From Lachnospiraceae bacterium (GTDB taxonomy: Bacteria; Bacillota; Clostridia; Lachnospirales; Lachnospiraceae): a stretch of DNA of 33,174 nucleotides. Shown here piece after piece: positions 1-33,064 of this stretch (the stretch's first letter is position 1; each line of letters starts with the position of its first letter). The notes under the pieces were generated by a model, which was not told the origin of the DNA, ran no database searches, and saw nothing but the letters and a program-made list of their open reading frames with translations. Both the position numbers and the translations under genes were made by a program. The stretch is taken from assembly GCA_021770245.1 (NCBI GenBank), contig JAETRI010000038.1, positions 1 to 33,174 of the forward strand, in the 5' to 3' direction.

Positions 1-327
1 AGGCTGCAGGCGGGAGAGCGCCCGAGGTCTTAAGTTGACCACATTGGGCACTTAGCGAGCGCGCCCCTTGCGAGCTTAGTACCGCTGCGTTTTTGGCTGA
101 GCGAAAGCGGGTCCCCGATGGATCATCACACGCCTCGGGGACGGGCAGGGATGGCGCAGGGGCCACAAGGCCATTCACGCGTTTGTCCTGCCGGAAACCC
201 GCTGCCGGTATTAGGCCGGGACGCCTTCGGTGTGCAGGGATTTTAGTGGGGCAATTTGTCTTTTTCCCCATATAATAGTAGAACAGGAAAACGGGCGCGA
301 AAAGCGCCGTCAGAAAGGAGCGCGTCC
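1..327. other. Leader region upstream of the DUF305 gene
   Basis: No convincing gene lies here. The first ~35 bases could be the 3' end of a plus-strand gene cut by the window edge: two frames close with stop codons by base 36, but no family can be recognised. The stretch holds a 14-base word (32-45) that recurs at 22904-22917, a family A repeat at 141-206, and a TATAAT hexamer at 271-276 that is well placed to be the -10 box of the DUF305 gene, although its -35 box is weak. Confidence 0.4.
141..206 (+). repeat. Dispersed palindromic repeat family A, copy 1 (with module B)
   Basis: This copy holds the family A core: GGGCAGGG, then GGCGCAGGGGCC, then GGCCATTCACGCGTTTGTCC (167-186 approximately). 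It aligns with copy 4 (17809-17871) over about 46 bases with few differences. It runs directly into a 16-base segment, TGCCGGAAACCCGCTG (189-204), that recurs at 13980-13995 downstream of a family C repeat, so the families share modules. It is entirely intergenic. Confidence 0.75.
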
Positions 328-12281: not shown

Positions 12282-12317
12282 CCAAAAACGCTGATAAACC
12301 GCGGCAAACACAGGAAC

Positions 12318-12359
12318 GGGCAGGGGTGCCGCAGATACCGCAGGCCCGTTCATGCGTTT
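12318..12359 (+). repeat. Dispersed repeat family A, copy 2
   Basis: Core GGGCAGGGGTG, a variable middle, then CCCGTTCATGCGTTTA. The minus-strand TAA stop codon of the MATE gene (12358-12360) is formed by the last bases of this repeat, so the repeat directly abuts the coding region. Confidence 0.65.
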
Positions 12360-13823: not shown

Positions 13824-13903
13824 GCATAGTTTCGAAACGGGTAAGCCGGAAGGCCCGCGGACGCTCTCCCTATTGTGCCCGAATCATGCCGTCTCCGGTT
13901 CAG

Positions 13904-13995
13904 GCCAAACGCATGAGTGGCCGTAACAGTTCCGCCACCCCGCAGGCTCCCGGACGCCGGGGCGCACAGGGAAGGATCCTGCCGGAAACCCGCTG
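13904..13995. repeat. Composite repeat: family A copy 3, family C copy 2 and module B
   Basis: AAACGCATGAGTGGCC (13907-13922) is family A in the minus orientation. It is followed by the family C core (13935-13985), whose segment 13942-13982 is identical over 41 bases to the reverse complement of 27742-27782. It ends with TGCCGGAAACCCGCTG (13980-13995), also present after family A copy 1. This is the only place where all three modules are joined. Confidence 0.8.
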
Positions 13996-17808: not shown

Positions 17809-17871
17809 CCGGGCAGGGGTGGCGCAGGGGCCGCAGGGCCATTCATTCGTTTGTCCTGTCCGGCAGGATCC
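17809..17871 (+). repeat. Dispersed repeat family A, copy 4
   Basis: GGGCAGGGGTGGCGCAGGGG, then GGGCCATTCATTCGTTTGTCC, then CTGTCCGGCAGGATCCGG. It is the copy most like copy 1. It lies between the padR promoter and the terminator of the L,D-transpeptidase gene. Confidence 0.75.
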
Positions 17872-21505: not shown

Positions 21506-21607
21506 GATGAGAAGTCGCGAATGCGATTTCTCATCTGCGATTCCATTTGGGCCGCCTACGGCACAAATGGGGATTGAAAAATAAGCCATCAGGCTCATTT
21601 TTCAATC
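21506..21607 (-). promoter_or_regulatory. Multi-hairpin leader of the mannosidase mRNA
   Basis: Three successive stem-loops: GATGAGAA/TTCTCATC (21506-21535), CCATTTG/CAAATGG (21543-21570) and GATTGAAAAAT/ATTTTTCAATC (21572-21607), the last with an inner AGCC/GGCT stem. The third recurs in the leader of the DegV gene at 22706-22741. A TATAAT (-10) lies upstream at 21668-21673 with a poor -35 box. Confidence 0.5.
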
Positions 21608-21710
21608 TATTCCTACAGATAAAATAGCATTTCCGGGAGGATTTTTCTTCTGTTTATTTGACTGATTATTATACTATTTTGACCAGGCCCGGGCACCTGC
21701 AGCATATTTA

Positions 21711-21742
21711 GGCAGGAGAGGGCCGTTCACGCGTTTGTCCCG
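21711..21742 (+). repeat. Dispersed repeat family A, copy 5 (short)
   Basis: GGCAGGAGAGGGCCGTTCAC, then GCGTTTGTCCCG. It keeps both ends of the family A core but lacks the middle segment. It lies between the mannosidase promoter region and the 3' end of the second DegV gene. Confidence 0.6.
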
Positions 21743-22659: not shown

Positions 22660-22706
22660 CTTTTGTGCATAAGGCAGCTCCTTCGTGTTACCTGGCACAG
22701 ATTGCG
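22660..22706. repeat. CATAAGG-type intergenic repeat, copy 1
   Basis: About 45 bases around CATAAGG...CTCC...TGTTA...GGC, roughly 70% identical by eye to 24995-25040. It lies inside the leader of the second DegV gene, next to the shared hairpin. Confidence 0.5.
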
Positions 22707-22741
22707 ATTGAAAAATAAACCATCCGTATTATTTTTCAATC
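22706..22741 (-). promoter_or_regulatory. Leader stem-loop shared with the mannosidase gene
   Basis: The 11-base arms GATTGAAAAAT/ATTTTTCAATC are identical to those at 21572-21607, with a 14-base loop that differs except for GATGG (minus strand). Flanks also match: GATAGATTG- before and a TGTGCC after (minus strand). Both lie 60-75 bases downstream of a -10 box. Confidence 0.55.
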
Positions 22742-22814
22742 TATCCTTTCATGCCACGCCCGAAGGCCTGCATCTCTCGTTGTTCTAATATTTTGAATAT
22801 CAAATCTTTTGAGT

Positions 22815-23021: not shown

Positions 23022-23492
23022 TTAGAACCCGGGCCAGAGCCGCACCGTTCCCCTTGGACGCCTTCTTTCCCTTTTCCAGCCGGCATACAGATCGCAAGCC
23101 GTATTTTTCTTCAGATATAATCTTCCGGCCTGCGTAATGCACTCCTTCTCCAGATACCAGGTATGTCCGTCACTTAAGGGAAAATATCCTCCAAATCCGC
23201 AGTCCGTATAGGAAAACAGCCTTCCGATGCTGCACCCGTCCCTTTCCCAGGCTTTTTCCCTTCCCAGGCAGCGTACCTCATATATCAGATCCTCTCCCGT
23301 GGGATAATTGGAATGGTAGCGGACAGTCACGCTCCAAAAGGGTTCCTCCTTTCCCCGTCCCGCGGCCTTCCCCTCCTTCTCCATAAAAACCGTGAAAAAA
23401 AACAGTCCCAGAACCACTGTGCAAAACATCAGGATCGCCAGCGCCGCGCGGCAATTGTCTTTTCTATCCCGTCTCAATATCCAGTCCCCCAC
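23022..23492 (-). CDS. Hypothetical membrane-anchored protein
   Basis: A 156-residue frame with one membrane helix near the N-terminus (AALAILMFCTVVLGLFFFTVF, residues ~17-37) and an extracytoplasmic part with four or five Cys residues, aromatic segments (FSYTDCGFGGYFPL, GHTWYLEKECI) and a basic C-terminus. I do not recognise a family. The start is uncertain: GTG at 23492 (AAGGG four bases before) or TTG at 23477 (GGGGG eight bases before). The frame is open further upstream, but only through the family A palindrome, so coding there is unlikely. It may be a single-pass membrane protein of the envelope; it lies next to the M23 peptidase gene on the same strand. Confidence 0.5.
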   Translation of the reverse strand: MGDWILRRDRKDNCRAALAILMFCTVVLGLFFFTVFMEKEGKAAGRGKEEPFWSVTVRYHSNYPTGEDLIYEVRCLGREKAWERDGCSIGRLFSYTDCGFGGYFPLSDGHTWYLEKECITQAGRLYLKKNTACDLYAGWKRERRRPRGTVRLWPGF

Positions 23493-23496
23493 AAGG

Positions 23497-23574
23497 CCCT
23501 TTGAACACGGCAAACGCATGAATGGTGCCGCGGGGGCCGCAGGGCCATTCATGCGTTTGCCGCACCCTTTGAAC
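23497..23574. repeat. Family A palindrome, copy 6, with 10-base flanking direct repeats
   Basis: A hairpin with 18-base perfect arms (23508-23525 and 23545-23562) built from two opposing CATTCATGCGTTTG units around a 19-base GC-rich centre. The direct repeat CCCTTTGAAC flanks it at 23497-23506 and 23565-23574. This looks like a non-coding mobile element with a target-site duplication. Confidence 0.75.
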
Positions 23575-23708
23575 GGTAAAGCAGACTTTTTCGTTCAGTG
23601 CATGTATAATGGATGGAAGATACTGGGAGGCCGAAAAATGCCGGTTTTAGCCGGTCTTGGCCTTCCGCGGATAAATTGTCGGGCACCTTTTATGATGAAC
23701 GTTATTTC

Positions 23709-24797
23709 CTACTTTTTCCACAACACTTCAGTTGTTTTTTCTTCCAGATATCTCTCCACTGCCGGATCCTCCATTCCGTATACGCGTTCCCATTCCTTCG
23801 TCCCCTCCACCTTCCGGGTTTCGCACTGGTTTTTATAAAGGAATTTGGAGATCTGATAGCAGTCAATCCAGATTTCGTTGTCCGATTCTTTCTGAGACTC
23901 GTCAAAGATCAATTCCAGCCCCCAATGGAGGTGTACCGTCTTGATATTGTTGACGTTTTCCGTGGCCGAGTACCCCGTATGTCCCATATACCCGATCACG
24001 TCGCCGGCCGTCACCGCATCCCCCTCCGCAAGTCCTTCCGCATAGGGAAAATCCTGGCGAAGATGGGCATAGTAATAATAGCGCCTCCCGTCAAAGCTTC
24101 GGATTCCGATCCTCCAGCCTCCGTATTGATTCCATCCCAGCACTTCCACATAGCCTGACTCCACGGCCACCACCGGCGTGCCGATTTGACCCATCATGTC
24201 ATGTCCCAAATGGGGACGTTTATATCCATAGCTTCTGGACGAACCGAAATCATCGAAATCCGAATAGGGAAAGCCTTTGGCAATGGGAGAAAACGCCTTC
24301 AGCCCGTACTTCCTCCTCCATACCACTTCCCCGTTTTCATCCTTTTCCTGGAGAAGGAATTCTCCCACCATGCCGCCCAGGGCCGCATCATAGGCCTCCT
24401 CGTAATAGGAATAGCTTTCCAGGCCGGCCGTCTCTTCTTCCCAGACGGTTTCTCCCGTTCTTACCCGTTCCGCGGCCGCTTCCATTGCCTTCATGCCCTG
24501 TTTTCCGAATTCTCCGCCGCTTTTTGCCGCACCATAAGCCAGCAGGCAGACCCAGTCGATATGATAATCCGTTCCGTAGGTTTCCACGTCGATGCCGTAG
24601 GCCAGGGTGAGTGCATCGCAGGATGCCTGAAAATCCACCCAACGGATAAAATCCCCGTCCGTCGTCTCTTCCTCTGCCAGCAGCGCCGTGGAGTTTGCCT
24701 GCTCGGCCTGTTTTCTGCCCTCCGTGACGGCCGCCAATAGAAGGATGATCATCACTTCGGTCAAGATCAAGATTTTCAGCTTCCGGCAATATCTCAT
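23709..24797 (-). CDS. M23 family metallopeptidase, membrane-anchored
   Basis: A 362-residue zinc endopeptidase that cuts peptide cross-links in peptidoglycan, or a non-cutting relative such as SpoIIQ. It has an N-terminal anchor (LKILILTEVMIILLLAAVTEG, residues ~7-27) and an Asp/Glu-rich N-domain to ~170. The LytM domain has Zn ligands in LGHDMMGQIGTPVVAVESG (~196-214) and HLHWGLE (~289-295). The complete HxxxD and HxH ligand set suggests an active enzyme. The start at 24797 follows TAGGAG; a longer frame upstream lacks a binding site. It lies next to the unknown membrane gene and is not in an obvious operon. A role in growth or sporulation cannot be decided from sequence. Confidence 0.9.
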   Translation of the reverse strand: MRYCRKLKILILTEVMIILLLAAVTEGRKQAEQANSTALLAEEETTDGDFIRWVDFQASCDALTLAYGIDVETYGTDYHIDWVCLLAYGAAKSGGEFGKQGMKAMEAAAERVRTGETVWEEETAGLESYSYYEEAYDAALGGMVGEFLLQEKDENGEVVWRRKYGLKAFSPIAKGFPYSDFDDFGSSRSYGYKRPHLGHDMMGQIGTPVVAVESGYVEVLGWNQYGGWRIGIRSFDGRRYYYYAHLRQDFPYAEGLAEGDAVTAGDVIGYMGHTGYSATENVNNIKTVHLHWGLELIFDESQKESDNEIWIDCYQISKFLYKNQCETRKVEGTKEWERVYGMEDPAVERYLEEKTTEVLWKK

Positions 24798-24994
24798 AGC
24801 GGCTCCTAAACTGCTTTCCTTCCCAATATATGCCCGCTCCAATATCCATATGCGTTCGGAGAGGAATGAAAATTGACGTTTGAACCACTATTTTTCCGAT
24901 ATAAAGCGAACCCCGGTGAATTGCTTCACTCTGCAGGAGCCGGATTGGGCCGTTGTCCGGGCACGGGACTCTTTATGCGCCTGCCCAGAGGAAG

Positions 24995-27724: not shown

Positions 27725-27799
27725 GTAACAGCTGCCACCCCGCAGGATCCTTCCCTGTGCGCCCCGGCGTCCGGGAGCCTGCGGGGCAGCTGAATAGTT
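27725..27799. repeat. Dispersed repeat family C, copy 3 (complete palindrome)
   Basis: An almost complete palindrome: GTAACAGCTGCC-A-CCCCGCAGG on the left and CCTGCGGGGCAGCT...GTTAC on the right, with a ~31-base centre. Bases 27742-27782 are identical to the reverse complement of 13942-13982. Confidence 0.85.
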
Positions 27800-27839
27800 A
27801 CAAAAAACGCCGCAGGGCATTCCCCACGACGTTTTTTGT
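27800..27839. terminator. Terminator of the acetyltransferase gene
   Basis: ACAAAAAACG/CGTTTTTTGT arms, directly after the stop codon of the acetyltransferase gene. The A/T arms allow it to work in both directions. Confidence 0.7.
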
Positions 27840-32127: not shown

Positions 32128-32801
32128 TTACGTTTCCTCCGTTCTTTGCGTGCACTGGTGCACTTCGCATCTGCCCGGCGGGTATTTCCGGGCTTCGCTT
32201 TGTCTGCGCGGGCCGAAAACGGGAATCCTTTTTCGTGCCGTTTTGCGGAAGCGGCGGTCTTTTAAGAAGTGTATGGCAAAAACGCTTCCCAAATGCGCAA
32301 TGAGCACAGGCAGACTCCACCCCGGCGCTTCCACGCCTCCTGGTGTATCACACGCTGTGCATACCAAAACAGTTACTAATTGACTGGGACTTCCCGGCAT
32401 CCGCCTGCGAAAGTCCAGCCGGACATTCATCCGGCCTTTCCGATACTTCGGTGCCGCGCTTTCCGTCCGAAGACACCCGATAAGGGGCATCCTGCGGCCC
32501 GGTTCCCTGGGCACTGAGGATATGGGATATCCTAATTTTCGGTATCAAAAAGTAATCTCCCGTAAATCTGCTCCAGTCCCGTATTGCCTCCGATCTTTGC
32601 CTGTCCGTTTTCCGCAGGCCTACGATCGTGATTTGACCCACCCTGCAGGGCGGATCCCGAAAACACAAGAGCCGGACGCATGCTCCGTCCCCGGCGGACA
32701 CAAAAAAGAAGCCTCCGGTTACGAAACGGTCTTACGTTCAATTATCTACAAGCACCGTTTCCTTAAACGGTGCCGATGCCGCCTGAATGAAACGGCAGAG
32801 A
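32128..32801 (-). other. Long gap within the ribosomal operon (rpmJ-rpsM)
   Basis: 674 bases without a supported gene; the frames present have no family features and no ribosome binding sites. Hairpins seen are GTGCAC-TG-GTGCAC (32143-32156), just before the rpsM binding site, GGATAT-GGG-ATATCC (32518-32532), and CACCGTTT-N4-AAACGGTG (32754-32773), near the rpmJ end. A good internal promoter was not found. It may hold an S4-responsive leader, remnants of a lost gene or a repeat insertion. Confidence 0.5.
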
Positions 32802-32975: not shown

Positions 32976-32988
32976 GCCAATTTTCCCA

Positions 32989-33036
32989 GGTTTTCGGGAC
33001 ATTTCCGCAGGTTTTCGGGACATGGTTTTCGGGACA
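32989..33036 (+). repeat. Three copies of a 13-base word upstream of the rpmJ promoter
   Basis: GGTTTTCGGGACA at 32989-33001, 33010-33022 and 33024-33036. The last copy runs directly into family A copy 7. Confidence 0.8.
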
Positions 33037-33064
33037 AACGCATGAATGGCCTTGCGGCCCTCAC
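33032..33064 (-). repeat. Dispersed repeat family A, copy 7
   Basis: GGACAAACGCATGAATGGCC, then TTGCGGCCCTCAC, in the minus orientation. It is fused to the triplicated word upstream. Confidence 0.75.

Follow-up and report, generated by a model that had tools for sequence, protein, structure and literature searches.

What is the short hairpin that lies between two genes at 23507-23564 of this 33,174-nucleotide stretch of Lachnospiraceae DNA (the window, which is contig C41 of draft genome G000; 4.28 Mb, 237 contigs), and how did it come to be there? The first-pass annotation of the window had described a perfect hairpin with the same 10-base word on both sides, situated at the 5' edge of an unknown gene, and had proposed a very short, non-coding, MITE/REP-like mobile element with a target-site duplication. 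We followed this proposal through the window, the rest of the draft genome and related genomes, and what began as a guess from raw sequence becomes a documented insertion, with an empty site in a relative and a likely parent transposon.

The hairpin and its empty site

The structure is as it had been described. The two 18-bp arms are exact reverse complements, and they form part of a longer, imperfect stem (26-nt arms, 88% complementarity, 3-nt gap). When folded as RNA, the minus strand of 23490-23580 reached -48.8 kcal/mol (z = -6.06), a value that 0 of 200 shuffles equalled. The flanking word, CCCTTTGAAC, occurs only twice in the 33-kb window, flush with the palindrome on each side, and its reverse complement does not occur there at all. 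Coordinates of these and the other features are collected in Table 1.

The comparison came from G011, a genome of the same genus, which matched the window with 82% DNA identity over 23065-23506 and 87% over 23565-24692, the two matches overlapping by exactly ten bases in G011. At the orthologous site (L151) G011 reads AAGGCCCTTTGAACGGTAAAGC: the palindrome is absent and CCCTTTGAAC is present once, not twice, which is the outcome that the annotation had predicted for a relative lacking the palindrome. Since this site is empty and holds a single CCCTTTGAAC, the segment 23507-23564 is an insertion with a target-site duplication of 10 (or 9) bp. The second figure reflects an alternative placement of the borders (23506-23564, 59 bp, with a 9-bp duplication), which also fits when the element is taken to include the preceding C; in the family consensus this C is an element base, and the G011 site is compatible with 58+10 bp and 59+9 bp alike. 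The outer bases of the window copy are CACGGC/TGCGGC, as against CAGGAC in the consensus. A named contig, L061, gave the same reading as L151 over this stretch with equal alignment figures, and the two are therefore counted as one relative; the search of relatives' genomes returned no other that aligns across the site.

Table 1. Features of the window around the insertion, and further family copies and ends
Feature	Position	Strand	Remarks
Left target-site duplication copy CCCTTTGAAC	23497..23506	.	single copy in the G011 empty site
Inserted element, very probably an ISAs1-type MITE, 58 bp	23507..23564	.	not at the orthologous site of G011
Left terminal inverted repeat CGGCAAACGCATGAATGG	23508..23525	+	2 mismatches to family word GGACAAACGCATGAATGG
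Inner stem and loop, partly paired	23526..23544	.	inverted-repeat and RNA fold analysis
Right terminal inverted repeat	23545..23562	-	2 mismatches to family word GGACAAACGCATGAATGG
Right target-site duplication copy CCCTTTGAAC	23565..23574	.	
Neighbouring open frame, 176 aa as listed	23022..23552	-	first ATG inside element; membrane-anchored by eye
Upstream neighbour, M23 peptidase, 377-aa frame	23709..24842	-	PF01551 4.7e-15
Second paired family copy	12306..12359 (core coordinates)	.	no flanking repeat recognised
Single family end	171..188	-	1 mismatch
Single family end	13903..13920	+	2 mismatches; adjoins CCACCCCGCAGGCTCCCGG repeat
Single family end	17839..17856	-	1 mismatch
Single family end	21723..21740	-	2 mismatches
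Single family end	33032..33049	+	0 mismatches

Three further query stretches, holding four paired copies of which three were aligned, yielded no second clean empty site in G011. For the copy at L208:429 the palindrome is absent from G011 but the left flank has diverged, the intergenic stretch of G011 that corresponds to the L225 copy holds another element, with the same ends, and the L185 alignment was uninformative. About 200 bases from the latter copy, L185:1627-1728 drew 39 of the 41 G011 matches, pointing to a related high-copy short repeat in that genome.

The element sits between the M23 peptidase gene and the gene at 23022-~23492, both on the minus strand. The peptidase protein matched best an uncultured Lachnospiraceae MAG (92%), followed by Eisenbergiella porci (73%) and E. 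tayi (70%), and G000 is accordingly taken as Eisenbergiella-like. As for the gene at whose 5' edge the element had been placed, a Pfam and NCBIfam scan of the listed frame gave no match, so that it keeps its description as an unknown gene. Its native start probably lies at 23477-23492. Where G011 has ATG TTG AGA CGG, a possible start, the window has ATA TTG AGA CGG; further upstream, the in-frame ATG codons that the listed frame offers are inside the element. The downstream gene may owe an in-frame ATG to the insertion, which we put no more strongly because GTG and TTG codons at 23477-23492 could also serve as starts.

A dispersed family with flanking repeats

Searching the whole of G000 for the arm word AAACGCATGAATGG with at most one mismatch returned 226 matches (104 + 122), whereas a reversed-word control returned 1 (0 + 1), revealing many dispersed copies. 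With up to two mismatches, 144 ends were found in the window plus a sample of 1.22 Mb (8 for the control), forming 34 inward pairs shorter than 450 bp and leaving 76 ends outside any such pair; the sample is unfit for estimates of density because its contigs were chosen for known copies. These ends avoid genes, 31 of the 144 falling in open frames compared with 118.5 expected under crude gene models (frames of at least 150 aa). From suitable loci of G000 we gathered 43 distinct paired copies, window copy included, and removed three doubtful pairs before counting arm changes. The remaining 40 measure 56-399 bp (median 88), the longer ones combining extended palindromic arms with a distinct core. 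G010 has one related copy, and the matches listed for G011 include two paired copies and a single end; these have the same or nearly the same ends and quite different interiors.

The flanks of these copies bear the mark of insertion. Direct repeats of 8-10 bp were recognised at 18 of the 43 paired copies (11 perfect, 7 with one or two mismatches), as against 0.38 copies expected from shuffled flank pairings, and were not recognisable at the other 25. The annotation had tied its reading to this point, which would have failed had all other full-length sites lacked such repeats; the 18 include the window copy, where the duplication is accompanied by the single word of the empty site. In 200 shuffles of left and right flanks among copies, the score of a perfect 10-bp repeat was never reached. 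When the ends were set at six bases beyond the core, there were five perfect repeats of 9 bp, two of 10 bp and none of 6-8 or 11-13 bp.

Several contigs of G000 (e.g., C39, C51, C91, C158, C208, C217 and C219) end 100-170 bases past a family end; longer, near-identical copies may therefore interrupt the assembly and be the cause of some of its contig breaks. Among plasmids and phages, a 265-base stretch with a longer copy gave no match at E 0.001. Viral contigs contained three exact matches to the 17-base end, which we took as chance; they had one shared sequence context and no second arm within 130 bases.

ISAs1 ends and the likely parent

A profile search of G000 for DDE_Tnp_1 (PF01609) gave six matches, and only the one on contig C6 has a family end. 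The C6 transposase, an open frame of 374 residues, scored 328.9 bits against NF033564 (2.9e-98; cut-off 70), which identifies it as an ISAs1 transposase, and it also matches PF13808 and PF01609. Some 60 bases past the frame start, the IS terminates in exactly CAGGACAAACGCATGAATG (19 bases), and at its other end the first base of the contig falls within that word. The family thus has its ends in common with an autonomous element, the ISAs1 of C6, although the contig start cuts the left end of this copy, which may therefore be incomplete, and hides any target duplication there. This ISAs1-family IS is the likely parent of the MITE family. Inside the 19-bp ends we saw, by eye, no similarity between the window element and the G000 IS. 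The start letters of ISAs1 are CAGGA in G000 and mostly CAGGA or CACGA elsewhere, as against the CAGGG (four of five letters in common) at which, according to the accessible part of PMC11946415, ISAs1 ends begin; transposition is there described as making a 10-bp repeat.

Other candidates for the parent were set aside. Long inward end pairs (450-4,500 bp) in the sample provided 14 candidates, none of which was accepted; among them, the C207-type pair in L207 consists of two separate short elements joined, and the C87 pair (L298) has a longest open frame of 257 aa and no PF01609 match on C87.

The association of these ends with ISAs1 recurs elsewhere in the Lachnospiraceae. A transposase gene bracketed by near or exact copies of the 19-mer CAGGACAAACGCATGAATG (0-2 mismatches) is present in G350, G408, G402 and G192; that of G408 has one stop. 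The copies of G408, G402 and G192 are flanked by the duplications ATCCCGTCGG, GGAAATGAA and AGCAATTCT, respectively, and that of G350 starts at a contig end. Ends of 19 bp with duplications of 9-10 bp agree with what defines the ISAs1 family (terminal repeats of 14-22 bp, duplication of ~10 bp). In G015, an ISAs1 copy flanked by a 10-bp repeat ends in sequences related to this 19-mer, with 3 and 4 mismatches. Short copies occur as well: a 184-bp copy in G028:C220, devoid of a long frame, has AAAAGAAAT on both sides as a perfect 9-bp repeat, and a 246-bp copy in G277:C16 has no recognised flanking repeat.

Of 397 genomes of this bacterial family (assumed to be the same in both searches), 30 contain the end word and 19 a close ISAs1 transposase (E at most 1e-60); 13 contain both, compared with 1.4 expected, an overlap that is partly made up of the IS's own ends. 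Six of the 19 are without the end word, and 17 of the 30 without a close transposase. Within the genus (13 genomes) the whole ISAs1 gene is found in G000 only; it is split in two in G005, fragmentary in G011 and G004, represented by two weak pieces in G002 and missing from eight genomes, G010 having one family copy and no ISAs1 match.

We hold it very probable that the element is a MITE with ISAs1-family terminal inverted repeats, moved in trans by ISAs1 transposase. According to this mechanism, the transposase would bind CAGGACAAACGCATGAATG-like ends in trans and move the element, which would be joined to a staggered cut of 9-10 bp, and repair would leave the direct repeats. The C6 transposase, or a close relative since lost, presumably did the mobilising. 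Like ISAs1-family insertion sequences (NF033564; PF13808 and PF01609), the family has terminal CA(G/C)GACAAACGCATGAATG and a 9-10 bp target duplication; unlike them, the window element has no transposase gene and, by eye, an interior of its own. Prokaryotic MITEs are described, in the portion of PMC10969869 available to us, as short, non-coding and mostly intergenic, with terminal inverted repeats, duplications and the ends of a resident IS, all of which the present family displays. The window copy differs in being very short, only 58 bp including its perfect 18-bp arms, and largely palindromic, with arms that across the family often carry the same variants. The family itself is new but ordinary in kind: ISAs1-type MITEs in high copy number. 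Its small non-coding passengers with ISAs1 ends probably number more than 100 in G000. The literature on ISAs1 and MITEs that we examined, as far as its accessible text goes, names no ISAs1-derived MITE, and an ISfinder registration is possible.

Three other explanations deserve weighing. A REP/BIME-type element moved by a RAYT (Y1 HUH) transposase would account for a family that is short, palindromic, mostly intergenic and abundant, and arranged in inverted pairs, as REP/BIME palindromes are. Yet Y1_Tnp (PF01797) had no match in draft G000, in a search that was positive in 5 of 14 control genomes, and the family departs from such palindromes in its 8-10 bp duplications and in ends that match ISAs1. 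Single-strand HUH transposition is not known to make target duplications. We regard this origin as extremely improbable; of the double label MITE/REP-like, MITE stands, and REP is unfit because the ends are those of an ISAs1 IS and no Y1/RAYT transposase was found in the draft. Repeats that resemble REPs in a Lachnospiraceae genome would then be ISAs1 passengers.

A structured RNA or regulatory hairpin conserved in place, with the 10-mers as part of the structure, could be argued from the great stability of the fold (z = -6.06) and its position just upstream of a gene, but the hairpin is missing from the orthologous site of G011, its arms are dispersed over unrelated sites, no Rfam family is found at the element (gathering threshold) and, by eye, no U-run follows it, leaving this explanation very unlikely. 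Mobilisation of the MITE by another DDE transposase of G000 must reckon with five further PF01609 matches, our transposase searches of this genome having covered PF01609, PF01797 and NF033564 only. The flanks of these five (up to ~1.5 kb, less at contig ends), however, hold no match with fewer than six mismatches to the 18-base family word, whereas the ISAs1 gene has a match with one mismatch, exact over the 19 bases of CAGGACAAACGCATGAATG; there is very little chance, in our estimate, that another DDE enzyme was responsible.

Matched arms and neighbouring repeats

Within the ISAs1-type family, the two arms of a copy tend to vary together. Over the 14-base core of the 40 paired copies, deviations numbered 35 in left arms and 30 in right arms, and in 22 cases the two arms of a copy shared the change, position for position, as against 3.0 expected (maximum 10 in 5,000 shuffles). 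These matched changes comprise twelve different combinations in 17 of the 40 copies, and some copies have, by eye, an indel common to both arms. Among 11 longer copies, 8 left arms were most like the right arm of their own copy; for the remaining three, that arm ranked 5th to 8th of 11.

Part of this matching is explained by subfamilies that descend from a matched founder, but each founder itself needed a coupled change. Template switching between arms has been described for microbes (PMC8794818, in the part accessible to us). Such switching during replication would be the simplest mechanism for the matching seen here, and would renew the close match of the arms. It is conceivable, if rather doubtful, that these MITEs are self-renewing palindromes: template switching would recopy one arm onto the other, keeping variants and indels matched within a copy, and interiors would be created anew, with conservation between species confined to the 19-bp ends that the transposase binds. 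If so, dozens of loci would preserve a natural record of quasipalindrome correction. In any case the matched arm variants offer a set of copies on which template switching in bacterial genomes can be tested.

Several other repeats and signals were observed alongside the family. Repeat CCACCCCGCAGGCTCCCGGACGC is present at 1720-1775, 13924-13979 and 27728-27801 (minus strand) of the window, 85-91% alike; it lies beside or inside ISAs1-like ends at 13903-13920 and C6:1238-1363, and is therefore probably the interior of a sister MITE class. At L218 125-511 (G000:C22), a longer copy contains a nested foldback with ends CAATGTGGTCAACTTAAGG and the 11-bp CGCTAAGTGCC on both sides; this foldback is a second MITE family, whose ends we take to be IS231/IS4-like. 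An AT-rich, 58-base palindromic repeat, GATTGAAAAATAA...TTATTTTTCAATC, occurs at 21560-21617 and 22694-22751 of the window (81% alike), and the latter copy had many short matches at 82-89% in the same-genus genomes G003-G009, indicating another, genus-wide repeat family. Just before the family end at 33032, a 21-base unit is repeated twice head-to-tail (32980-33021, 90% alike). The segment 28662-28714 has 23-base inverted arms, a 7-base loop and A/T tails on both sides, resembling a two-way terminator, and the window's one Rfam match at the gathering threshold is an S4-Clostridia ribosomal protein leader at 32379-32440 on the minus strand (43.2 bits).
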